Part shown: positions 8,512-29,858 of the stretch, in pieces
How the letters are laid out: each line of letters starts with the position of its first letter
Numbering within the stretch: position 1 is the stretch's first letter
Origin: a virus
Length of the DNA stretch: 29,858 bases
Direction: 5' to 3' (one strand)
IMG/VR virus record: IMGVR_UViG_3300020457_000057
Coordinates: 1 to 29,858 of that record
Notes under the pieces: model-generated
What the model was told of the DNA's origin: nothing
What the model saw: the letters and a program-made list of their open reading frames with translations, nothing else
Database searches by the model: none
Program-made: the position numbers and the translations under genes

Positions 8512-8519
8512 TATAAATA
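8512..8519 (+). promoter_or_regulatory. T4-type late promoter for hsp20 (TATAAATA)
   Basis: Exact TATAAATA in the intergenic region, giving a predicted start near 8525 and a ~59-nt leader before the ATG at 8584. Suggests that the small heat-shock protein is made late, during virion assembly. Confidence 0.55.
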
Positions 8520-8583: not shown

Positions 8584-9042
8584 ATGGTAGTAAGAAATAA
8601 CTTGAACGTCCCGCGTTCACTTTTTGTAGGTTTTGACAGAATGTTTGAGGATTTGGAAAGAATCCATTCATCTGCTAGAGCCGGTACAGACAATTATCCA
8701 CCCCATAACATAGTGCGTGTAGACGAGGAAAAGTTCCTCATTGAACTTGCTGTGGCAGGATTTCAACAAGATGATATAAACATCGAGATGAAAGATGGCA
8801 TTTTAAAGGTAAGTGGAGAAGTTGCAAAAGACGAGCGCGAATATGCTCATAAAGGTATTTCATCTCGCAAGTTTGATAAACGCTTCCGTTTATCTGAATT
8901 TGTTGTAATAGATGGGGCTGACCTAAAGGATGGCATACTTGTGGTTTACGCCAGGGTAGAGATTCCAGAAGAGCAGCGTCCTAGGAAGATCGATATAGGG
9001 TCTGCTGGGGCATCAAAGAAGAAGCAATATTTAAAAGGCTAA
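8584..9042 (+). CDS. hsp20: Hsp20 / IbpA-like small heat-shock protein
   Basis: 152 aa. Alpha-crystallin domain about residues 40-130: PPHNIVRVDEEKFLIELAV opens the fold, and GADLKDGILVV (111-121) matches the conserved A-x-x-x-x-G-I-L-x-V element. The tail has an I-x-I-type KIDI (135-138) used for oligomer contacts. ATP-independent holdase; hsp20 is frequent in marine T4-like phages and may help fold virion proteins. Strong AGGAGG ribosome-binding site, within a possible thermosensor hairpin, downstream of a late promoter. Confidence 0.93.
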   Translation: MVVRNNLNVPRSLFVGFDRMFEDLERIHSSARAGTDNYPPHNIVRVDEEKFLIELAVAGFQQDDINIEMKDGILKVSGEVAKDEREYAHKGISSRKFDKRFRLSEFVVIDGADLKDGILVVYARVEIPEEQRPRKIDIGSAGASKKKQYLKG

Positions 9043-15397: not shown

Positions 15398-16588
15398 ATG
15401 AAAAAAATAACAGTCGTAGGTGCAGGATATGTTGGTATGGCAAATGGTGTCGCCTTATCACAATTATATGATGTAACCATACACGATATAGACGCAGAAA
15501 AAATACACCTAATTAATAAGAATAAAAGTCCTATTAAGGACCACATGATAGAACAATGGCTATCATCTAAAAAAGATTTACATTTAACGGCCACATCTTT
15601 TGTTGAAGAAGCTTATACTGGAGCTGACTATGTAGTAATTGCAACTCCAACAGACTATGACCCAAAGACAGATTACTTTAATTTAAATTCAGTATATTCT
15701 GCAGTTGCCAGTGCACTAGAATATGCACCTAAAGCTTTAATTGTAGTAAAATCAACTGTACCTATTGGATTTACAAAAGAAATTAGAAAATATTTTAATA
15801 CAGATAGAGTGGTATTCAGTCCAGAATTTTTAAGAGAAGGCACAGCATTAGCTGATTGTGTATATCCATCAAGAATAGTTATGGGATTTGATGATATACC
15901 AAACGAAGAAGCTCAAGATTTTGCCTATATGCTTCAATCTGTTACAAGTAATGATGCTGAGGTTCAGTGGGCCGGTGCAAGTGAGGCAGAGGCCATAAAG
16001 TTATTTGCAAATAGTTATCTGGCCATGCGTGTAGCTTTCTTTAATGAAATGGACTCATATGCAGAATTTAATAAACTAAATACAAGAGAAATAATTGAAG
16101 GTATGTGTAGTGACCCAAGAATAGGTAAGGGATATAATAATCCATCTTTTGGTTATGGTGGTTACTGTTTCCCTAAAGATACAAAACAACTACTTGCAAA
16201 CTTTAAAAAAGATAGAGTACCAAATAGAATAGTTAGTTCGATTGTACACTCCAATGATATAAGAAAAGATTGGATTGTAAATCAAATATTACATAGAAGT
16301 CCAAAAGTAGTAGGTGTATATAAATTGGCTATGAAAGCAAACAGTGATAACTTTAGAGTTTCAGCTATCATAGACATACTCAAGGAATTAGGTAAATTAA
16401 CTAAAGTAGTTATCTACGAACCAGATATCAAAGCTACTGAGTTCGAGGGGTTTGTGGTAGAGGATAACTTTAAGAAGTTTATAAAGCTATCAGATGTAAT
16501 TGTAACAAATAGATGGGATAGTGAATTAGAAAGCGCAGGCGTATCAAGTAAACAAGTTTATACAAGGGATTTATTCGGAGAAAATTAA
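15398..16588 (+). CDS. ugd: UDP-glucose 6-dehydrogenase
   Basis: 396 aa, close to E. coli Ugd (388). Rossmann VGAGYVGMANG (7-17), ATPTD (82-86), STVPIG (119-124), SPEFLREG (141-148), and the active-site loop GGYCFPKD with the catalytic Cys257. Oxidises UDP-glucose twice with NAD+ to UDP-glucuronate; a related UDP- or GDP-sugar substrate cannot be excluded. It has its own leaderless promoter. Its stop overlaps the start of the epimerase by one base (TAATG). Confidence 0.9.
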   Translation: MKKITVVGAGYVGMANGVALSQLYDVTIHDIDAEKIHLINKNKSPIKDHMIEQWLSSKKDLHLTATSFVEEAYTGADYVVIATPTDYDPKTDYFNLNSVYSAVASALEYAPKALIVVKSTVPIGFTKEIRKYFNTDRVVFSPEFLREGTALADCVYPSRIVMGFDDIPNEEAQDFAYMLQSVTSNDAEVQWAGASEAEAIKLFANSYLAMRVAFFNEMDSYAEFNKLNTREIIEGMCSDPRIGKGYNNPSFGYGGYCFPKDTKQLLANFKKDRVPNRIVSSIVHSNDIRKDWIVNQILHRSPKVVGVYKLAMKANSDNFRVSAIIDILKELGKLTKVVIYEPDIKATEFEGFVVEDNFKKFIKLSDVIVTNRWDSELESAGVSSKQVYTRDLFGEN

Positions 16589-17502
16589 TGAAAAATATAT
16601 TAATAATAGGTGGAGCTGGATTTGTCGGTTCAGCATTGGCCAAACATTTATCTAAAGAACATAATGTTACTTCCTTAGATAATTACTTTACAGGCACAGA
16701 AGCAAATCATCATGATAGAGTATCATATATTAAAGGCGATAGTATGGATATACATAAACTTACTCCCGAGCCTGGCTTCTATGATATTATATTCCATTTT
16801 GGAGAATATGCAAGAGTAGAGCAATCGTATGAGGATTTTGAAACTGTTATGGATTATAACCACAAATCATTTCCTATTGTCTTGGATTTCGCAAGGCAGC
16901 AGAACGCCAAGTTTATTTACTCAGGCTCATCAACTAAATTTGCAGTAGGTGAAGATGGTTCCAAGATGAGTCCTTATGCATATACAAAGGCTCAGAATAC
17001 TGAATTACTTAAAGCATATTCAGATTGGTATGGATTAAAATATGCCATCTGTTATTTTTATAATGTATATGGAGACCACGAGATAGGCCAAGGTAAATAT
17101 GCAACAGTTATTGCCAAGTTCCTACAGCTAGTCAAAGAAGGTCATAAAACTTTACCGGTTACAGCTCCTGGCAGTCAGCTGAGAAACTTCACGCATATAA
17201 ATGATATTGTAAGTGGTTTACAACTAATTATGGATAATTGTGAAGGCGATGGATACGGCATAGGTTGCGACAGAAAATGGTCCATGCTTGAAGTGGTTGA
17301 TGCTATGGGTGTTGATTATCAAATAGTAGAGGCCAAGAAAGGTAACAGAATGGACGGTGAGCTGAAAACAGATAAACTCAGGGCTCTTGGGTGGAATGCA
17401 ACGCATGACCTAGGAGATTATATAAACACCAAATTAAAAGGAACAAGGATTCCTGACACACAATATGATACTCCTTGGCAATTTGGAACATGGTTAAAAT
17501 AA
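16588..17502 (+). CDS. SDR nucleotide-sugar epimerase or decarboxylase
   Basis: 304 aa extended short-chain dehydrogenase. NAD-binding GGAGFVG (8-14), catalytic Ser region YSGSSTKF (111-118) and YxxxK in YAYTK. FNVYG-type CYFYNVYGDH and RNFTHINDI complete the family pattern. Immediately after ugd the likely substrate is UDP-glucuronate, giving UDP-galacturonate by 4-epimerisation or a UDP-pentose by decarboxylation. The characteristic arginine pattern of UDP-xylose synthases is not clear, so the reaction is open. Confidence 0.8.
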   Translation: MKNILIIGGAGFVGSALAKHLSKEHNVTSLDNYFTGTEANHHDRVSYIKGDSMDIHKLTPEPGFYDIIFHFGEYARVEQSYEDFETVMDYNHKSFPIVLDFARQQNAKFIYSGSSTKFAVGEDGSKMSPYAYTKAQNTELLKAYSDWYGLKYAICYFYNVYGDHEIGQGKYATVIAKFLQLVKEGHKTLPVTAPGSQLRNFTHINDIVSGLQLIMDNCEGDGYGIGCDRKWSMLEVVDAMGVDYQIVEAKKGNRMDGELKTDKLRALGWNATHDLGDYINTKLKGTRIPDTQYDTPWQFGTWLK

Positions 17503-17939
17503 TGAAAAAAATAGGATTAACTGCATCTACATTTGACTTGCTTCATGCAGGGCATGTTGCGATGTTAAGAGAAGCAAAGACAGCATGTGATTATTTAATT
17601 TGCTGTTTACAAAATGACCCATCTGTCGATAGGCCAGAAAAGAATCAACCCATACAGAATATTGTTGAAAGACAAGCTCAACTAGCTGCTATAAAATATG
17701 TTGATGAAATACTAGTGTATAATACTGAAGCAGAATTATTAGACATATTAGCAATGTATCATATAGATGTTAAAATTATGGGCGAAGAATACCGTAATAA
17801 AGATTTTACAGGTAGAGAATTATGTCAAGAAAGAAACATTGAGTTCTACTTTAATAAGAGAGACCACAGATTTTCAACAAGTGATTTGAGAAAAAGAGTT
17901 ACAGAAAAAGGTTTACAAAATACCAAATATGTGATATAA
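17502..17939 (+). CDS. TagD/HldE-like nucleotidylyltransferase
   Basis: 145 aa from ATG 17502, which overlaps the epimerase stop (TAATG). An upstream in-frame ATG (17475) lies inside the epimerase gene and is not needed. [16 protein letters not shown] carries the HxGH nucleotide-binding motif (HAGH). [20 protein letters not shown] and [10 protein letters not shown] parallel glycerol-3-phosphate cytidylyltransferase (TagD) and the HldE nucleotidyl domain. It makes a CDP- or ADP-activated polyol or sugar; substrate not determined. Third member of a sugar-nucleotide operon. Its stop lies inside the -10 of the next promoter. Confidence 0.8.
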
Positions 17940-19305: not shown

Positions 19306-19662
19306 ATAACTAATAAAGATTATAGTTTTGTAGATAATCCTAGTAGCCCGGTATCTGGTGTTAAAATACTAGCAGAAGAATATAAAAATGTTATTGTTTT
19401 ATATGGAGCAGTATCGGTTAAAGAAGATGAATCTTTAGGTATGGCAACATTATCCTTTAACTTTAATATACAGGACCCTGGAGAACATGATTTTGATGAA
19501 TTAAACGAAGATGAAGAATTTAAAAATTATTTAGGAGCTCTGCTTCAATATATAATAACAGATACTCTTGAATATAATAAAGAAAATAATTTGTCATCAA
19601 TAGGAATAGGAAAAGATGAAAGAACAGTTACCGACTCACATATTAAGTCATCTTCTGAATAA
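19294..19662 (+). CDS. 122-aa acidic protein between uvsX and gp41
   Basis: Starts 1 nt after the uvsX stop and overlaps gp41 by 47 nt. Beta-rich N-terminal two thirds (VKILAEEYKNVIVLYGAV, then MATLSFNFNIQDPG), an acidic stretch DELNEDEEF, a helix YLGALLQYIITDTLEY and a polar tail. The stretch has the look of a small alpha/beta domain. Conserved position next to the helicase suggests a replication role, but no family is recognised. No clear Shine-Dalgarno, so probably translationally coupled to uvsX. Confidence 0.65.
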   Translation: MVYNITNKDYSFVDNPSSPVSGVKILAEEYKNVIVLYGAVSVKEDESLGMATLSFNFNIQDPGEHDFDELNEDEEFKNYLGALLQYIITDTLEYNKENNLSSIGIGKDERTVTDSHIKSSSE

Positions 19663-21001
19663 CGAAGAGTATTGTAGGCGAACTATTCCCTATATACAAA
19701 AAGATTATTTTGAAGGTACTCATAAAACTGTCTTTGAGCTAATTGTTTCATTTGTTGGAACACATAATAAATTACCAACAGCTAGAGTTCTTGATTTAGA
19801 ATTAAGAAAAATATCTGCACCGGAAGACATACTAAATAATGCTTCTACTTTAATAAAAGAAATTGAAGCAAAGACAGATGTCGATACAGAATACCTAATT
19901 AAGGAATCTGAAAAATGGTGTAGAGATAGAGCAGTATATAATGCTATTATGGATTCAATTGGAATAATTGACGGCAAAGATAGTAATAGAAGCGAAGGTG
20001 CTATTCCAGAAATATTATCAGATGCATTAGGTGTATCATTCGACCAAGCTATTGGTCATGATTATATTGATAATTCAGATGCTCGGTTTAATTTCTATAA
20101 TACAAAAGAAGATAGGATTCCATGGGATTTGGAATACTTTAATAAAATTACTAAGGGTGGTTTACCAAATAAAACATTGAACATCGCTCTTGCAGGGACT
20201 GGTGTAGGTAAATCTTTATTTATGTGTCATTGTGCTGCATCAGTCCTACAGCAAGGCCGTAATGTTTTGTATATCACTATGGAAATGGCCGAGGAAAGAA
20301 TAGCTGAAAGAATAGATGCTAATCTTATGGATTTACCAATCGAACAATTGCAAAGAATATCAAAGGACGCCTTTGAATCTAAAATACAAAAGATTGCCAC
20401 AGCCTCTATTGGAAAACTTATAATAAAAGAATATCCAACAGGCGCGGCTCATACAGGGCATTTTAGAGCATTATTAAATGAATTAAAGCTCAAGAAAAAC
20501 TTTGTACCTGATATGATTTATATTGACTATTTAAATATTTGTGCCTCATCTCGTATGCGTGGGTTGGGCGGAAGTATAAATAGTTATTCATACATTAAGG
20601 CTATCGCTGAAGAACTCAGAGGATTGGCCGTGGAATTCAATGTGCCTATAGTTTCGGCAACACAGACCACAAGGTCTGGGTATTCAAATACCGATGTCGG
20701 ACTAGAGGATACATCTGAATCATTTGGTTTACCTGCAACTGCTGACCTTATGTTTGCTCTAATATCAACAGAGGAACTTGAAGAATTGGGGCAGTTGTTA
20801 GTAAAACAATTGAAAAATAGGTATAACGATCCTACTAAATACAAACGCTTTGTGGTTGGTATCGATCGTTCCCGCATGAAACTATATGATGTGGAGGAAT
20901 CCGCGCAACAGGATCTGGTCGCAGAGCCTGTGGTGGACAAACCAATAAATAAGTTTGGCGACCGTGAAACAGAAGATACATTCGCAAACTTTAAAATTTA
21001 A
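19616..21001 (+). CDS. gp41: gp41 replicative DNA helicase (DnaB family)
   Basis: 461 aa; T4 gp41 is 475. N-terminal helical domain to about residue 150, then RecA core with Walker A AGTGVGKS (193-200), the H1a-type MEMAEERIAERI, Walker B DMIYIDYLNI near 296-305, and SATQTTRSGY followed by ATADLMF. The C-terminus ends with an acidic/hydrophobic tail (DTFANFKI). Hexameric 5'-3' helicase of the phage fork. It overlaps the preceding gene by 47 nt; AGGA is at 19609-19612 in a weak ribosome-binding site. Codon use in the last ~40 codons is more G/C-rich than elsewhere. Confidence 0.95.
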   Translation: MKEQLPTHILSHLLNNEEYCRRTIPYIQKDYFEGTHKTVFELIVSFVGTHNKLPTARVLDLELRKISAPEDILNNASTLIKEIEAKTDVDTEYLIKESEKWCRDRAVYNAIMDSIGIIDGKDSNRSEGAIPEILSDALGVSFDQAIGHDYIDNSDARFNFYNTKEDRIPWDLEYFNKITKGGLPNKTLNIALAGTGVGKSLFMCHCAASVLQQGRNVLYITMEMAEERIAERIDANLMDLPIEQLQRISKDAFESKIQKIATASIGKLIIKEYPTGAAHTGHFRALLNELKLKKNFVPDMIYIDYLNICASSRMRGLGGSINSYSYIKAIAEELRGLAVEFNVPIVSATQTTRSGYSNTDVGLEDTSESFGLPATADLMFALISTEELEELGQLLVKQLKNRYNDPTKYKRFVVGIDRSRMKLYDVEESAQQDLVAEPVVDKPINKFGDRETEDTFANFKI

Positions 21002-22255: not shown

Positions 22256-23530
22256 ATGACTCCCTGGACTTTAATCAAACAACTTGAAAAAGATAATAGT
22301 CGGTTATATAAAGAGGACTTGCTAGAAAAATATATAGACGACCCTATATTACAACAAGGGTTATTATATGCTTTAAATCCTCTTACTACTTTTGGTGTAA
22401 AACAAATCCCAATATCAGATACCGATGGCCCTGGCTTGGAGTTTTCTGAATTTGCTTTATTATTAAATGCATTAAAAACTAGAGGCGCGACTGGCAATGC
22501 GGCAAAAGATGCCATAGAAGAAAAAATGCAAAAGGCCACAGTTAAACAATGGAATGATTGGTACAGAAGAATAATACTCAAAGATTTAAAATGTGGCGTA
22601 TCAGAAAAAACAGTTAATAAAATTGCAAAGAAAAAGGGTATGAATTTTGAAATACCCATATTCGGTTGTATGTTGGCCTCAGATGGTTTAAAACATGAAA
22701 ACAAAATGGTAGGTGAAAACATACTCGAATATAAATTTGATGGTGTTAGAGTTATTGGTATAGTTGTTAATAATGTCTGCACTCTCTACAGCCGAAACGG
22801 TAAAGAATTTCCAAACTTTCCACACATACAAAAAGCCCTATCAAAGCCCGAATATGAAGGCCTTGTATTTGATGGCGAAGTTATGAGTGAAGATTTCCAA
22901 ACTCTTATGAAGCAGGTATATAGAAAATCTGATGTACAAACAGATGATGCATATCTTGCTCTATTTGACATATTACCATTTGAAGAATGGAACAATGGTA
23001 TATCTACATTAACTCAAATAGAAAGAAAGAAACAATTAAATCAAATGGAGTTTGATGAGTGTATTCATCGCGTAGGTTATATAGAAGCAAACCTAGATGA
23101 TGAAGAAGGCCAACTCGCATTTAAAAATTTAAACAAGGATGCTATTGAAAAAGGCTATGAAGGTATAATGGTTAAACCAGCAAACGGACTTTATGAATGT
23201 AAAAGAAGTAAACTGTGGTTAAAAATTAAACCATTTATAGAGGTTACACTTACAGTGGTCGACATTGAAGAAGGTACAGGAAAATATCAAGATTGTACAG
23301 GTGCTCTTGTTTGTGAAGGAACTGATGCTGGTACATTTATTGAGGTAAATGTTGGCAGTGGTTTGGCAGATAAAGATAGAGCAGATATTTGGGAAAATAA
23401 AGAAAAGGTTTTAGGACAACTTGTAGAAATAAGAGCAGACAGTATCACAGAAAATCAAGATGGTACTTTCAGCTTGAGGTTCCCCAGGTTTAAAACATTT
23501 AGAGGATTTAATATAGGAGAAAAAATATAA
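22256..23530 (+). CDS. gp30: ATP-dependent DNA ligase (gp30-like)
   Basis: 424 aa; T4 gp30 is 487. N-terminal helical DNA-binding region, motif I EYKFDGVR with nucleotidyl-accepting Lys160, motif III FDGEVM, motif IV EGIMVKP, motif V KLWLKIKP, then an OB-fold with motif VI-like LRFPRFKTFR. Seals Okazaki fragments and recombination intermediates. Downstream of the leaderless promoter at 22067; its stop overlaps the next ATG by one base. Confidence 0.93.
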   Translation: MTPWTLIKQLEKDNSRLYKEDLLEKYIDDPILQQGLLYALNPLTTFGVKQIPISDTDGPGLEFSEFALLLNALKTRGATGNAAKDAIEEKMQKATVKQWNDWYRRIILKDLKCGVSEKTVNKIAKKKGMNFEIPIFGCMLASDGLKHENKMVGENILEYKFDGVRVIGIVVNNVCTLYSRNGKEFPNFPHIQKALSKPEYEGLVFDGEVMSEDFQTLMKQVYRKSDVQTDDAYLALFDILPFEEWNNGISTLTQIERKKQLNQMEFDECIHRVGYIEANLDDEEGQLAFKNLNKDAIEKGYEGIMVKPANGLYECKRSKLWLKIKPFIEVTLTVVDIEEGTGKYQDCTGALVCEGTDAGTFIEVNVGSGLADKDRADIWENKEKVLGQLVEIRADSITENQDGTFSLRFPRFKTFRGFNIGEKI

Positions 23531-23971: not shown

Positions 23972-23979
23972 TATAAATA
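23972..23979 (+). promoter_or_regulatory. T4-type late promoter for the capsid-targeting-peptide cluster
   Basis: Exact TATAAATA, 25 nt between its end and ATG 24005. Predicted start near 23985, then a ribosome-binding site AAGAGGA (23994-24000). Placement right before the first gene with a virion-packaging peptide makes this the best-supported late promoter here. Confidence 0.7.
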
Positions 23980-24004: not shown

Positions 24005-25456
24005 ATGAAAAACTTCTCGAGCTTCAGAAAACTACAAGAAGATTTAGATAACCTTCAATGGAACGGTAACGAGACAGCGTTTGCTCTCTCATTACTAGCT
24101 GACATAGATGATAAAATCGGTTCTATTAATACTGAAATTTCAATAGACCCTAGACCTCAAAAACAATCTGGTAAAAAATTAGGTGTTTCTCAGTTAATGC
24201 CAGACTCAGACAGAACAAAATATGCTCCCCTAGCTCTTGATATAATTAAAAACCATCCTGATTTAGAACCAGGCCCAGTAGGTAATGCAAGAAAGGGCAA
24301 AGATTATGCTGTAAAATTTAAAGACATGGACAAATATATCTATGTAAATGTTCGTCCTTTAGGTAAAAGAAGTTCTGCTGGAGATGACCCTAACGAGTTA
24401 ATGACTGCTGCTTTATGTTTATTACCTAAAATAAATATACCAACAGAAGTTGATGAAATGGATTTACTAATTGATTTGGTAAAAGGTCAACTTAAAAATG
24501 TAAGTGGTTATAAACAAGGACAAGTAGATGCATTGGTAGGTGATTATCCAAATATGTGTCAAGCAGTATCCGCTGCTAAAACAATACATGATGCTGGATA
24601 TGGTAATGCAGATAAAGTATATTTAACAGGACAGGCTTGGGACGATGATGTAAAACAATTCCAAATATCAAAATATGGAATGAATGATTTTAACTCATCT
24701 GACTTTATTGTAAAGAAAGGCGATAGGTTTTTAGGTGTATCACTTAAAAAGAAAAAGCGAATTACAGAAACAGACCCAACACTCATTAATAAATCCTTTG
24801 CAACATTATTCCAAGACAAGAAATTTGATAAGGTAATACAACAGCTTGAAATGAGAGCTGGTGTTTTCTATCTTCGTGTTTTAGAGACCGGTAAAAAGAA
24901 AAGGCTACTTGATAAAGAGTTATTAAGGGATATGAAAAAGACTAAGCCGACTATTAAGAATTGGAAAGACTTTATTCAAAGAGTTCCAAACAATTTAATT
25001 AATTCAGAACTCAAAGGCTCAAAATCTTTATTTAAAGATATGGCAAAGATTATTATAAAAAATAAAGAGATGATGGCCAATCAATTAGTACAACTTATAT
25101 TTAAATCTGATTTAAAAGAATTACAAAAAGTAAATTTTGATTTTACATTGGTAACTGGTATAGGTGATTATGGTCCATCGAAAGGAGTAGTTGTTGAAAA
25201 GGGCGAATATAAAGATATTGATACTGTAACTACTAAACTAGATGAGCTATTTTCTAAAGGTAAGGTTTCCCTAGAGCTTGATAAAGCTACAAAACAGGCT
25301 TTCGATGTAGGTGCTACTGCAGCAATATTAGTGTTTAATATGAAGATTGGTAAGATAAATATTTGTACCATAACATTAAGATATAAAGGAAACTTTAGAG
25401 CAGCGCCTTCTTTCCAAGCAGTAATGCATAATGATTTTAAGGCAATATACAAATGA
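24005..25456 (+). CDS. capsid-targeted protein with nuclease-like (PD-(D/E)XK-type) core
   Basis: 483 aa. Its N-terminus MKNFSSFRKLQED resembles the T4 capsid-targeting sequence and has LQE as a probable gp21-type cleavage site. A helix with NELMTAALCLL (130-140), SSDFIVKKGD (231-240) and FLGVSLKKKK (242-251) fit the E ... D ... (S)xK layout of PD-(D/E)XK nucleases (E131, D233, K248); the usual D/E of the last motif is Ser, so this is tentative. The ~200 C-terminal residues are unassigned. If active it would be a DNA-end or host-DNA nuclease packaged with the genome. First gene after the late promoter at 23972; the next gene starts 4 nt before its stop. Confidence 0.6.
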   Translation: MKNFSSFRKLQEDLDNLQWNGNETAFALSLLADIDDKIGSINTEISIDPRPQKQSGKKLGVSQLMPDSDRTKYAPLALDIIKNHPDLEPGPVGNARKGKDYAVKFKDMDKYIYVNVRPLGKRSSAGDDPNELMTAALCLLPKINIPTEVDEMDLLIDLVKGQLKNVSGYKQGQVDALVGDYPNMCQAVSAAKTIHDAGYGNADKVYLTGQAWDDDVKQFQISKYGMNDFNSSDFIVKKGDRFLGVSLKKKKRITETDPTLINKSFATLFQDKKFDKVIQQLEMRAGVFYLRVLETGKKKRLLDKELLRDMKKTKPTIKNWKDFIQRVPNNLINSELKGSKSLFKDMAKIIIKNKEMMANQLVQLIFKSDLKELQKVNFDFTLVTGIGDYGPSKGVVVEKGEYKDIDTVTTKLDELFSKGKVSLELDKATKQAFDVGATAAILVFNMKIGKINICTITLRYKGNFRAAPSFQAVMHNDFKAIYK

Positions 25457-25845
25457 CAAACTTTAAACAATTTTTAGAAGAAGGACTTTGGGATAATATC
25501 CGAAAGAAGCGTGAAAGAATCAAAAGAGGTTCTGGTGAACGCATGAGAAAAAAAGGTGCAAAAGGAGCTCCTAGCGATGCGGCAATCAAACGAGCTCAAG
25601 AAGCAGTAAAGAACAGTGAAGTCGACCTCATGTTAAAGCGTGGGGAAACATATATCCTTAAACAAGATAGAGAAGATTATGCTAGAGGTTTACTTGTTAC
25701 TATGAATGAAGATGGCAGTTATACAGTTGCATATTGGTTAGAAGATGCCGAGCCATATCCAATAGAAGTAATCGTTGATGGTAAATCTGTAAAGAAAGAT
25801 GGTAAACTAATTAAATTAAACTTTCACCCAAATTTAGATAAATGA
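25453..25845 (+). CDS. capsid-targeted 130-aa basic protein
   Basis: N-terminus MTNFKQFLEEGLWDN carries the F-x-x-[FY]-L-x-E-G peptide of T4-type internal head proteins (cleavage expected after LEE). Next, a strongly basic region (RKKRERIKRGSGERMRKKG) would suit DNA binding inside the head. The C-terminal half is beta-rich (ETYILKQ, LLVTMNEDGSYTVAYWLEDA). ATGA overlap on both sides. No enzyme motif. Confidence 0.7.
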   Translation: MTNFKQFLEEGLWDNIRKKRERIKRGSGERMRKKGAKGAPSDAAIKRAQEAVKNSEVDLMLKRGETYILKQDREDYARGLLVTMNEDGSYTVAYWLEDAEPYPIEVIVDGKSVKKDGKLIKLNFHPNLDK

Positions 25846-26198
25846 ATAGTTTTAAACAGTATTTAAAAGAAGGCCCTAGGATACCTAGAGAAAAAGGCCA
25901 ACACAAAGGTAGTTCAAGCCATAGTGATTTATATACTGACGAGGACCCAAAGGGAACTATTCATGGATTAGGATTTAAAGATGCTGCGACTGCAAAGAAA
26001 GGTATCGCAATAATTAATAAGGCCAAAAGAACACATGCACATAAAGTTCAGGCCACCTTGGTAATGCAACAAAGAGCAAAACAAGCTATAAAAACAACAA
26101 AAGACCCAGAGAAGAAAGCAAATCTTAGAGACGCATATAAAATCTGGACGGACCATTTAGAAAAGTTAAAACAAAAAACTAAAGAGATGAATAAATGA
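25842..26198 (+). CDS. capsid-targeted 118-aa helical protein
   Basis: N-terminus MNSFKQYLKEGPR again matches the packaging peptide (LKE then Gly). The remainder is Lys/His-rich and mostly helical: GTIHGLGFKDAATAKKGI, then KAKRTHAHKVQATLVMQQRA and a C-terminal helix of alternating Lys and Glu. This second half looks like a conserved module of marine T4-like virion proteins, but I cannot name a function. ATGA overlaps tie it to both neighbours. Confidence 0.7.
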   Translation: MNSFKQYLKEGPRIPREKGQHKGSSSHSDLYTDEDPKGTIHGLGFKDAATAKKGIAIINKAKRTHAHKVQATLVMQQRAKQAIKTTKDPEKKANLRDAYKIWTDHLEKLKQKTKEMNK

Positions 26199-27430
26199 AA
26201 TCCTTAACTACATATTTAACCGAGGCCAAGAATACTCATATGACTCATATTGAGGACCTAATCTTGGACGGTGGAGTTAAGGGGGCCCGCCAGGCTATCC
26301 TAGCGCTTAGGTCATTGAGGGATATGTTGAGCGGTAGCGCGAAAGCACCTGTAGATGTTACCGTCAAATGGGACGGGGCCCCCGCCGTTTTTGCAGGAAT
26401 TGACCCAACTGATGGGCAATTCTTTGTAGCAAAGAAAGGCATATTTGCAAAAAATCCAAAGGTATATAAAAACCATGATGATATAGATGCAGATACCTCT
26501 GGTGATTTAAATAAAAAAATGAAACTAGCTTTTGATAATTTAAAAGACTTGGGCATTAAAGATGTTATTCAAGGTGATTTTATGTTTGAAAAAGGCGACT
26601 TGAAAAAGGAGAAGATAAATGGAATTGGACATGTTTTGTTTCACCCTAATACTATTGCTTATGCTGTACCAGAAAAATCTATATTAGGTAAACAAATTTC
26701 TAAAGCTAAGATAGGTATTGTTTGGCATACTTCATATTCAGGCTCATCATTTGAAAGTATGAAAGCTGAATTTGGTAGAGATATAGTGCCAAAATTAAAA
26801 AAGACAAGCAATGTGTGGATGGTAGATGCCACATTAAGAGACCTATCAGGAACTGCAACTCTTACAAAAGCTGATACCTTAGAAATTTCTAAGAAGTTAT
26901 CAGATGCAGGAAAGATATTCAGAAAAATACAATCCACTGTTTTAAAAGAAATAGAATCAAATAAAGAATTAAATTTAGTTATTAATGTATATAATAACCT
27001 ATCGGTCAGAAAGGGCGAAAGAATAACAAATACAAGTAAACATGCAAAAGGTTTAATACAATTTGTAGCAGATAGATATGCAAAGGAGATAGACAAGCGT
27101 TCATCACAGAAGGGTAAAGATGTACAAATATCAAAAAGAGATGAATTATTATCGTTTTTTTCTAAAAATAATGTAAAAAACCTTAAAAATATCTTTGATT
27201 TACAGAATTTAATTGTGGATAGTAAATTAATTATTATAAATAAACTAAACAAACTATCAAAAATTGATACATTTGTAAAAACTAAATCTGGGTTTAAAGT
27301 GACCGGCGTTGAAGGCTTTGTCGCTATAGACCGAACGGAAGGTGGTGCTGTCAAATTAGTAGACAGAATGGAATTTTCTACTAATAACTTCAGCAAGGAT
27401 ATAATAAAAGGCTGGGATAATCCAGGCTAA
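26195..27430 (+). CDS. capsid-targeted ligase-fold nucleotidyltransferase
   Basis: 411 aa. Packaging peptide MKSLTTYLTEA at the N-terminus (LTE cleavage site). Then the covalent nucleotidyltransferase motifs appear in order: motif I VKWDGAP (57-63, candidate nucleotidyl Lys58), motif III VIQGDFMFE (124-132), motif IV-like EGFVAID and motif V-like AVKLVDR near the C-terminus (about 374-392). This is the set shared by DNA ligases, RNA ligases and capping enzymes. It is not the replication ligase, which is at 22256. Likely an RNA- or DNA-end ligase carried in the virion. Bases 26281-26390 are strikingly G/C-rich for this genome. The family is inferred from motifs only. Confidence 0.6.
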   Translation: MKSLTTYLTEAKNTHMTHIEDLILDGGVKGARQAILALRSLRDMLSGSAKAPVDVTVKWDGAPAVFAGIDPTDGQFFVAKKGIFAKNPKVYKNHDDIDADTSGDLNKKMKLAFDNLKDLGIKDVIQGDFMFEKGDLKKEKINGIGHVLFHPNTIAYAVPEKSILGKQISKAKIGIVWHTSYSGSSFESMKAEFGRDIVPKLKKTSNVWMVDATLRDLSGTATLTKADTLEISKKLSDAGKIFRKIQSTVLKEIESNKELNLVINVYNNLSVRKGERITNTSKHAKGLIQFVADRYAKEIDKRSSQKGKDVQISKRDELLSFFSKNNVKNLKNIFDLQNLIVDSKLIIINKLNKLSKIDTFVKTKSGFKVTGVEGFVAIDRTEGGAVKLVDRMEFSTNNFSKDIIKGWDNPG

Positions 27431-27449
27431 TGGGAAACCGAGGATATAT

Positions 27450-29147
27450 ATGTCAATTAAATCATTTAATGAGTACCTAACAGAGGCGTCTACCGAGGCG
27501 ACCTTTGTATTTGGAAGATTTAATCCTCCAACAGAAGGTCATGAAAAGCTCTTTGACAAGCTTAAAACAGTATCACGTGGTGGGGTGTATCGTATATATG
27601 CTTCTAAATCACAAGACTCCAAAAAGAACCCACTCGGGTTTAAAGAAAAAATAAAGTTTATGCGTAAGATGTTTCCTAAACATTCTAGGAATATCATGGC
27701 AGATGCTGATGTGCGAAATGTGCTTGATATTGCAGTAAAACTTTACAATCAAGGATTTACAAAGATAACTATGGTTGCTGGAAGTGACCGAGTAAAAGAA
27801 TTTAATATACTACTAAACAAATATAACGGAAAGAAAGCAAGGCATGGTTTATATAACTTTGAGGGTTCTATAAATGTAGTATCAGCTGGACAAAGAGACC
27901 CAGATGCTGATGGTGTTAAAGGAATGTCTGCTTCTAAATTAAGAGATTTAGCCGCGGCTGGTGATTTACAAGGATTTGCAGATGCATCTTTAGAAGTTCC
28001 AGGCGATGGTATTCAAACTTTATATTATGCAATCAGAAAAGGTTTAGGCCTTAAAAAGGAATCATTCCGTAAACACATAGAATTACCACCTGTCTCCGAA
28101 ACTCGAGAAGATTATATTGAGGGTTCATTATTTAATGTCGGTAATAAAGTCGTTATAAAAGAAACCCAAGAAAGAGGAGTCATTAAAGTATGCGGAAGCA
28201 ACTATCTGTTAGTAGAGTTAAACGAAGGTGGAAGAAAAAGGTGCTGGCTAGACAGCGTTCAGCTAGACGAATATGCAGACTCAGCGGAATTCGGAACAAA
28301 GAGACTGACGGATAGATATAAAAAAGATACTCCTGGTCAAGGTGTTATAGAAAATGCTCCAGCCAACTTTATGAGATTAGCATCTGCTGGTTGGATGAAA
28401 ATGGCCAAAGATTTTAAGTTTGATAAAAGTGTTGCAAGTCTTGCTAAAAAGGCTTCTCAGTTGGCAAGGAAAGGTAATGATGCTTTTCAAAAATGGTTTA
28501 AATCATTACCGTATGATGATAGATTAATTCTTGCAGGAGAGATTGCACACTATACAAAACAAAAAGATAAAACTGTTGAAAAGATGCTAGACTTTAAGTT
28601 TGAGGGTGTATACGAGAAGAAAGACAAAGAAGGTAAGAAAACTCAGAAACAAGACCCGGATATAAAAGATAGACCTGGTACACAACCTGCCGGTTATTTT
28701 GCAAAAGATGCTGAAGGTGATGAAATGGCTAAGTCTACTAAACAAGCAAGAGCAAGACATTTTGAAAAAGGTGCTAAGAAAGATGATGATGACCCATCTG
28801 CATATAAACCGGCTCCTGGTGATGCAAGGGCAAAAACAAAGCCGTCTAAGCATACTAATAAGTTTAAACAAATGTATGGAGAGAATATGTTATCATTTGA
28901 AGATTATAATGTACAAGAACAAGATACCGATGCTGCAATTAGAAAGAAAGCAGATAAATCAGGTATGCCGTTTGGTATATTAAAACAAGTATTCAAGCGC
29001 GGCGTGGCGGCTTGGAGGACAGGACATAGACCAGGTACAACTTCAGTACAATGGGGACTTGCAAGAGTCAACTCCTTTGTAACTAAGTCATCTGGTACTT
29101 GGGGTAAAGCTGATAAGGACCTCGCAGCTAAAGTAAGAGGTTCTTAA
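27450..29147 (+). CDS. capsid-targeted NMNAT-like nucleotidylyltransferase fused to virion modules
   Basis: 565 aa. Packaging peptide SIKSFNEYLTEA (2-13). Residues ~18-200: GRFNPPTEGH (22-31), the (H/T)xGH motif of NMN-adenylyltransferase/cytidylyltransferases, with GMSASKLR (158-165) as the matching 'S-x-x-x-x-R' motif. Residues ~228-275 look like a small beta module (VGNKVVIKETQERGVIK). A Lys-rich middle follows (PAGYFAKDAEGDEMAKSTKQ), and the last ~70 residues (AAWRTGHRPGTT, ARVNSFVTKSSGTWGKAD) resemble a conserved phage C-terminal domain, DUF5824-like. An internal ATG with GGAG lies at 28887, before a second packaging-like peptide. Whether it acts on NMN or an RNA/sugar phosphate is unknown. 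Confidence 0.65.
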   Translation: MSIKSFNEYLTEASTEATFVFGRFNPPTEGHEKLFDKLKTVSRGGVYRIYASKSQDSKKNPLGFKEKIKFMRKMFPKHSRNIMADADVRNVLDIAVKLYNQGFTKITMVAGSDRVKEFNILLNKYNGKKARHGLYNFEGSINVVSAGQRDPDADGVKGMSASKLRDLAAAGDLQGFADASLEVPGDGIQTLYYAIRKGLGLKKESFRKHIELPPVSETREDYIEGSLFNVGNKVVIKETQERGVIKVCGSNYLLVELNEGGRKRCWLDSVQLDEYADSAEFGTKRLTDRYKKDTPGQGVIENAPANFMRLASAGWMKMAKDFKFDKSVASLAKKASQLARKGNDAFQKWFKSLPYDDRLILAGEIAHYTKQKDKTVEKMLDFKFEGVYEKKDKEGKKTQKQDPDIKDRPGTQPAGYFAKDAEGDEMAKSTKQARARHFEKGAKKDDDDPSAYKPAPGDARAKTKPSKHTNKFKQMYGENMLSFEDYNVQEQDTDAAIRKKADKSGMPFGILKQVFKRGVAAWRTGHRPGTTSVQWGLARVNSFVTKSSGTWGKADKDLAAKVRGS

Positions 29148-29858
29148 TGGCTGATTTTAAACTAACTCCTGATAGAGAAAAGGAGTTAGAAAAGATTGCA
29201 AAGGATTTACCTGATGCTGATTTTAAAAAGCGTTATGGTAAGGATTGGAAATCTGTGAAGATAGCTACGGCTATGAATATTTTAAAAAAGAAATTAGGAT
29301 TTAAAGAGGAAAATATGAAAAAATTTAAAGAATTTAGAGCCCAAATAGGAGAGGGTAAAGAGTTTAAAAAGAGTAAATTCTCAGATGACCAAGTCATGAA
29401 GGCAATTGATATCGCTATGTCTATGGGTGGTGCTATGACACCTGCATTTAAGAAGATAGAAAAGATTGCAAGAGGTTTAGGAGATGATTACTATGTTTCA
29501 AGAGCTTTAAAGTTAGCAAATGAAGATGTTAATGAATTAAGTAAAAAGAAAAGAATTGATATGATTCGAAAAGCTGTTGAAAGAGTTAAAAAGAAAAATG
29601 ATGCTAAAGCTAAGAAAGATGCTATGCGCATGATGAAACAGGCAGGAATGTTTGATGAAAATATACAAGAAGGAACATGGTCCATACCTGATAATAGAAA
29701 CGAATTAGCAATGTTATCTGATATGTTAATGACTCCATTTCCTGCTACAAAACCAAACGACTTAGATAAGTTTTTAGATAAATTTCCAGTAGGTGATGAT
29801 AGTCTATACGATGAAATAGATTCACAAATGTATGAAAAGGAATCTGATGGCTCAGTTA
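29147..29858 (+). CDS. capsid-targeted protein, 3'-truncated, two possible starts
   Basis: Open from ATG 29147 (TAATG overlap with the previous stop) to the window edge, about 237 residues. The first ~56 residues include PDADFKKRYGKDWKSVKIAT, a helical module. An in-frame ATG at 29315 has AGAGGA 5 nt upstream and starts MKKFKEFRAQIGEG, the packaging peptide seen in the five preceding genes. So either the short form is the main product or the longer one is cleaved after IGE. The rest is helical and charged; a further IxE-type site occurs in DENIQEGTW. Function unknown. Confidence 0.6.
   Translation, partial: MADFKLTPDREKELEKIAKDLPDADFKKRYGKDWKSVKIATAMNILKKKLGFKEENMKKFKEFRAQIGEGKEFKKSKFSDDQVMKAIDIAMSMGGAMTPAFKKIEKIARGLGDDYYVSRALKLANEDVNELSKKKRIDMIRKAVERVKKKNDAKAKKDAMRMMKQAGMFDENIQEGTWSIPDNRNELAMLSDMLMTPFPATKPNDLDKFLDKFPVGDDSLYDEIDSQMYEKESDGSV

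Follow-up and report, generated by a model that had tools for sequence, protein, structure and literature searches.

A predicted cargo island of capsid-targeted proteins in a marine T4-like phage

Six consecutive genes at the end of a viral genome fragment each encode a short peptide resembling the one that takes T4 internal proteins into the phage head, and the question raised by this locus is whether their products are carried in the virion. The window, meaning the whole stretch of DNA analysed here, is an IMG/VR record of 29,858 bases and represents a fragment of a genome. T4-type replication genes precede the island (24005-29858) in the window, with the genes for DNA polymerase (9417), recombinase (18231) and DnaB-type helicase (19616) named from sequence and a DNA ligase gene at 22256. 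Amid these replication genes, at 15398-17939, lies a set of nucleotide-sugar genes (UDP-glucose dehydrogenase-like, epimerase-like and a second cytidylyltransferase-like protein). A megablast comparison of 25 kb of the window gave no DNA-level match among INPHARED phages, and the nearest relatives by protein are phage C48C1, Methylophilales phage Melnitz, Stenotrophomonas phage DLP6, Pelagibacter phage HTVC008M and cyanophages. The gene order running from helicase through the DUF6267 and cytidylyltransferase genes to ribonucleotide reductase is found in most of these nearest phages. Packing of the island genes is tight, with overlaps between stop and start codons, and each of the six products is a basic protein (pI 9.1-10.0).

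N-terminal peptides of the island and their relatives

The preliminary description claimed that six consecutive genes carry a capsid-targeting peptide, and all six peptides were found in the sequence, with the correction that the sixth is located away from the start of its open reading frame. The peptides, like the genes and the promoter described below, are on the + strand. The first, MKNFSSFRKLQE (24005..24040), is of the IPI type with a predicted cut before D13. It is followed by three peptides conforming to the strict motif defined below, MTNFKQFLEE (25453..25482) and MNSFKQYLKE (25842..25871), each with G as the next residue, and MKSLTTYLTE (26195..26224), with A as the next residue. The fifth, MSIKSFNEYLTE (27450..27485), is also followed by A, and the sixth, MKKFKEFRAQIGE (29315..29353), again of the IPI type, begins at an internal ATG and is followed by G. 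The (L/I)xE sites ending the six tags are, in order, LQE, LEE, LKE, LTE, LTE and IGE.

Mutagenesis of T4 IPIII has attributed targeting mainly to residues 4 and 7 and processing to residues 8 and 10, and gp21 is documented to cleave after (L/I)xE (reviewed in PMC9026906). The regular expressions employed here were composed after the tags had been seen, yet were modelled on these published determinants. The strict motif, M-x(2-4)-[FYLI]-x2-[FY]-[LIVM]-x-E, is present in four of the six island genes, one of them shifted by two residues. The tags at 24005 and at the internal start 29315 have F4 and F7 followed by a delayed site, which is the layout of T4 IPI (MKTFKEF...ITEA). In the T4 control, which covered 82 genes, the strict motif selected ipII and ipIII alone. 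When the same peptide was sought elsewhere in the window, as had been proposed, none of the 34 upstream genes matched, against five of the last six (hypergeometric P 9e-6). At internal Met positions of four related genomes the strict motif occurred 4 times in 2368, to be compared with four of six in the island (binomial 1e-10).

Across 80 related contigs, tags were absent 4-14 genes upstream of the DUF6267 gene (0/441) and present in 133 of 296 genes at positions -1 to +2, although the P value of this offset profile (3e-63) overstates independence, since the contigs share kinship. An (L/I)xE site immediately precedes the conserved domain in all 77 close DUF6267 homologues and in 244 of 244 anchored homologues of a wider set, compared with 6% in control windows, and the P1' residue of the 77 is Ala in 60 and Ser in 16. 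Similarly, [LIV]xE was found in 74 of 75 anchored cytidylyltransferase homologues (control 16%). The fixed Glu and Leu are encoded by varying synonymous codons, and selection therefore acts on the peptide. Among gene 1 homologues the spacer between the F4/F7 part and the cut site varies by whole residues. The tag is outside the DUF6267 Pfam domain, since this domain begins at residue 13. The DUF6267 protein of the soil phage DLP6 begins MMKFTQFLAES, and HTVC008M-like DUF6267 proteins have kept the LxE site with the F4/F7 part mostly lost, being shortened to MELLNE or MLLVE. No tag was found at the N-termini of the DUF6267 proteins of S-SZBM1, S-SM1 and S-PM2.

Some observations concern tags outside the island or hidden by annotation. 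The C48C1 cytidyltransferase (L081 28453-28515) is annotated with a start placed too far downstream, and the frame ahead of that start encodes VIKNFSQYLLEE, a tag probably initiated at GTG. Strictly tagged proteins beyond the island, probably further cargo, are encoded at 78272-78868 in the IMG/VR contig G001 and at 19419-20918 and 57293-57910 in C48C1, and one of this set has a HAD-like DIDDT motif.

A late-promoter sequence, the prohead protease and virion proteomes

A T4-type late promoter, TATAAATA, is located at 23972..23979, its first T lying 33 nt upstream of the ATG of gene 1. The earlier claim of a late promoter right before the first gene holds in that the element is there and is conserved in relatives, but from the window alone it is at chance level, with 9 occurrences observed and 6.1 expected. 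Before members of the gene 1 family it was found in 32 of 42 unique upstream regions against 81 of 1290 in the background. Late transcription of the island is suggested by this sequence signal. A second perfect TATAAATA is present at 8512-8519, and the Hsp20-like gene at 8584 may be late-transcribed too, because this element lies 72 nt upstream of it.

A gp21-type prohead protease was regarded in the preliminary description as a necessary partner of the peptides. Peptidase_S77 was not found in this 29,858-base fragment, but it is encoded in every complete relative checked (C48C1, Melnitz, HTVC008M and four cyanophages) and in four of eight IMG/VR contigs (G001, G005, G006 and G007), the rest of which may be fragments. 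The relatives' gp21 aligns with that of T4 in GELNHP and GVSSRG, including the His and Ser of these motifs. Furthermore, in relatives (L/I)xE sites lie close to the beginning of gp21 and, in two capsid proteins, ahead of the mature part. The soil phage DLP6 is also reported to encode gp21 (PMC5349666).

Homologues of the cytidylyltransferase encoded by gene 5 have been detected by virion mass spectrometry in four cyanophages, namely GC190 of S-SM1 (PMC3037559), S-SZBM1_140 (PMC9146016), S-SCSM1_91 (PMC9602691) and ORF154 of S-CREM2 (PMC10665884). Their N-termini are MKKFSAFLNEA, MRFRQFIIEA, MKSFLQFLKEA and MKNFSSFLTEA, respectively. These NMNAT/cytidylyltransferases have a catalytic domain homologous to that of gene 5, the same type of tag and, except upstream in S-CREM2, a similar genome neighbourhood, whereas the DUF5824 C-terminus is an addition in gene 5. 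None of the four papers draws a link to the targeting peptide.

The products of all S-SCSM1 genes from 89 to 93 are listed as virion proteins (PMC9602691), of which 90 and some others are without a clear tag, and gp137 and gp140 of S-SZBM1, virion proteins of the same region, were counted as without one. S-CREM2 has a separate virion cluster comprising the SAM hydrolase ORF6, ORF12, ORF13, the kinase ORF14 and ORF15 (PMC10665884). ORF6, 13 and 14 have clear tags, that of ORF12 lies 17 residues in, and that of ORF15 is partial. The comparison of tagged and virion proteins in S-CREM2 gave a Fisher P of 0.01, with ORF14, which has a GTG start, added by hand. Co-purification of soluble proteins is allowed for by the authors of the S-CREM2 and S-SCSM1 studies (PMC10665884, PMC9602691). 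The untagged DUF6267 protein of S-SZBM1 is missing from the 30 reported virion proteins (PMC9146016), which agrees with packaging, though weakly because that proteome is shallow. In the open literature we found no proteomics of this phage or its nearest relatives and no report of N-terminal cleavage of these tagged proteins.

The S-CREM2 cluster just described (L371, 3837-13331) is a second cargo-like one, outside the island; it consists of a Cas9-annotated nuclease, an APH-like kinase, two small proteins and the SAM hydrolase, and every member is virion-detected and has a full or partial capsid-targeting peptide. A segment of about 45 residues (A..L.L...G.G.Y.D..G.V......G.L) after the tag is common to unrelated cyanophage cargo enzymes, its carriers being S-SCSM1_91 (L121 2820-4049), S-SM1 190 (L088 1257-2420) and S-CREM2 ORF12 and ORF14 (L333). 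Such a segment might serve as an additional module for packaging or ejection.

Predicted products of the six genes

The suggestion that several of the products are enzymatic finds support in that enzyme-like domains and conserved motifs are recognised in three of the six, the enzyme assignments being drawn from motifs and structural models. Sequence searches for DUF6267, gene 1 and gene 5 returned no credible relative of solved structure.

Gene 1 (24005..25456; phrog_3060) encodes 483 aa with two predicted domains. In its AF2 model (pLDDT 83), residues 20-120 have a Pol-beta-type nucleotidyltransferase-like fold (Z about 9), and residues 121-483 align with HinP1I over 210 of 247 residues (Z 8.8, rmsd 4.6; Foldseek E 0.055). 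D233 and S246-L-K248 are invariant among homologues, and Ser246 replaces the acidic residue of the canonical (D/E)xK of PD-(D/E)XK, which is thus absent. The model suggests a HinP1I-like, PD-(D/E)XK-like nuclease fold for the C-terminal part and a putative nuclease. S-SCSM1_90 was rejected as a gene 1 homologue, the match being non-significant, the PHROG a different one and only a GVSLKK stretch being in common.

Genes 2 and 3 encode small basic proteins. Gene 2 (25453..25845; 130 aa, pI 9.3; phrog_16028) contains a GLWxNIxxKRxR module after the tag. The longer form of this module, GLWxNIxxKRxR...RKKGxKGAP (25483-25614), is also found in Pelagibacter, Roseobacter and cyanobacterial podovirus-like phages, and it overlaps an annotated scaffolding gene in some phage records. 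Gene 3 (25842..26198; 118 aa, pI 10.0) gave a weak PADLOC match to PglX, which was put down to chance.

Gene 4 (26195..27430) encodes a DUF6267 protein of 411 aa, a full-length member of this Pfam family (PF19782; 337 bits), and is predicted to be an RNA-ligase-like covalent nucleotidyltransferase. The family has no assigned function in Pfam, to which gene 4 adds the tag and the RNA-ligase-like model. K58, D60, G61, E373, G374 and K387 are invariant in 62 DUF6267 homologues, and by sequence K58 would correspond to the KxDG motif I lysine of covalent nucleotidyltransferases. The AF2 model has a pLDDT of 79, and in a VIA comparison the top 22 rows were all RNA/tRNA ligases (best Z 8.3, rmsd 3.8, 188 aligned). 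The predicted fold resembles that of Naegleria Rnl, T4 Rnl2 and Rnl1 and fungal Trl1 (Z 7.0-8.3), and the invariant KxDG, E-G and late K of RNA ligases are also present in DUF6267. Compared with these ligases, DUF6267 has a helical insertion (residues 225-355) before motif IV and a single lysine in motif V, and shows no match at the sequence level. Foldseek on the model gave E 0.7 or worse, hhalign with T4 Rnl2 detected no sequence similarity, and no PDB ligase was matched by sequence. We regard an RNA-ligase-like DUF6267 as rather likely from the model, but put it forward as a hypothesis because Foldseek alone and the sequence comparisons lend it no support.

Gene 5 (27450..29147) encodes an NMNAT/cytidylyltransferase-like nucleotidylyltransferase with a C-terminal DUF5824. 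The (T/H)xGH and SxSxxR signatures were recognised by inspection as GRFNPPTEGH and SASKLR, and the protein matches the PHROG cytidyltransferase with E 2e-93. Its score against Pfam CTP_transf_like (17.0 bits) is below the gathering score of 21, so it is no formal member of that family, and NMNAT models match weakly.

Gene 6 (29147..29858) runs off the window and has a 55-residue N-terminal extension followed by the internal start. A Shine-Dalgarno-like AGAGGA (29305..29310, + strand) precedes the latter, with GAGG 5 nt upstream of the internal ATG (29315). The downstream part alone is matched by 64 relatives, most of which, among the matches listed, begin at or near MKFKELRE, and 16 relatives hold both parts in one open reading frame. 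The internal start is credible because of the GAGG and the 64 downstream-only relatives, and both starts may be used.

Probable packaging, its alternatives and the biology of marine T4-like phages

The most plausible explanation for these observations is packaging by a T4-type capsid-targeting peptide, which we consider highly probable. The packaged-protein reading of the preliminary description is well supported by the tag rules, their conservation, gp21 in relatives, the conserved promoter and the published virion detection of homologues. On this reading the island would be a set of cargo genes that a marine T4-like phage transcribes late, and its late-made products would be drawn into the prohead core by the N-terminal peptide with its aromatic or hydrophobic residues 4 and 7. 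By analogy with T4, the gp21 prohead protease would trim them after (L/I)xE, presumably at these exact sites, and the trimmed products would remain beside the DNA inside the head, like IPI-III and Alt, to be ejected into the next host and to act there. T4 IPI, IPII, IPIII and Alt have the same N-terminal peptide of 10-19 residues with aromatic or hydrophobic residues 4 and 7 and an (L/I)xE site, and small basic proteins are common to the T4 internal proteins and the island. The island differs in that its six genes are contiguous, three of its proteins are large and enzyme-like, its mature domains are unrelated to those of T4, and cleavage and injection are predicted by analogy. The internal proteins of T4 are anti-restriction or core proteins and Alt is an ADP-ribosyltransferase. 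The cargo of the island may constitute a nucleic-acid and cofactor kit, in which small basic proteins accompany an NMNAT-like enzyme, DUF6267 as an RNA-ligase-like protein and a HinP1I-like protein of nuclease fold. Its likely role would fall within the opening minutes of infection, ahead of phage gene expression, either restoring NAD or RNA hit by host defences or attacking host nucleic acid.

The peptides could instead be where the prohead protease cuts core or scaffold components, proteins that would help to assemble the head and would not be delivered as cargo. Short LxE segments are also seen at the N-termini of T4 gp22, gp67, gp68 and gp24, and the reduced tags of the HTVC008M-like DUF6267 proteins point in the same direction. 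We find this unlikely, since half of the island proteins contain conserved motifs within enzyme-like domains, an untagged DUF6267 protein, as in S-SZBM1 and S-SM1, would be odd for a head component, and the SAM hydrolase and kinase of S-CREM2 are virion proteins with the same tag.

Much less probable still is a purely translational or regulatory role of the 5' coding region, in which the common N-terminus would be no peptide signal. The tight packing and overlapping codons of the island genes would fit such a feature, but Glu, Leu and the aromatic residues are retained despite free synonymous variation in the codons, the spacer from F4/F7 to LxE changes by whole residues, and the motif is found at the starts of T4 IPII and IPIII. 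Chance is equally improbable as an explanation, according to which K/F/E-rich proteins of AT-rich genes often begin M-K-x-F and virion proteomics picks up abundant soluble contaminants. The low-complexity composition and the authors' caution on CsCl purity in S-CREM2 and S-SCSM1 speak for it; against it stand the complete absence of tags at neighbouring gene positions, their rarity at internal Met and the recurrent detection in four independent proteomes.

The capsid-targeting mechanism is already known from T4. What appears to be new in the searchable open literature is its marine spread as a multi-enzyme cargo island, the reading of DUF6267 and the link to cyanophage virion enzymes; no literature on DUF6267 was found, and among open papers capsid targeting and cyanophages occurred together only in a T4 review. 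The preferred reading, packaging by a T4-type peptide, turns a puzzle of cyanophage proteomics, in which a nucleotidyltransferase, a SAM hydrolase and a kinase were found in virions as possible contaminants, into a testable rule, namely to read the N-terminus. DUF6267 and its neighbours thereby gain a context and a candidate activity. Virion cargo would become predictable from the genomes of uncultured marine phages, and the possibility is raised that injected enzymes act before early transcription. Marine T4-like phages rank with the most abundant viruses of the ocean. One may speculate, tentatively and with more doubt than confidence, that they have in common a general route of protein delivery, with a single short peptide directing interchangeable enzymes to the head. 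The cargo would then include DUF6267 as an RNA-repair ligase, an enzyme that makes NAD and a protein of nuclease fold, all of which would act on the next host before phage expression, for instance against RNA-cutting or NAD-depleting defences.
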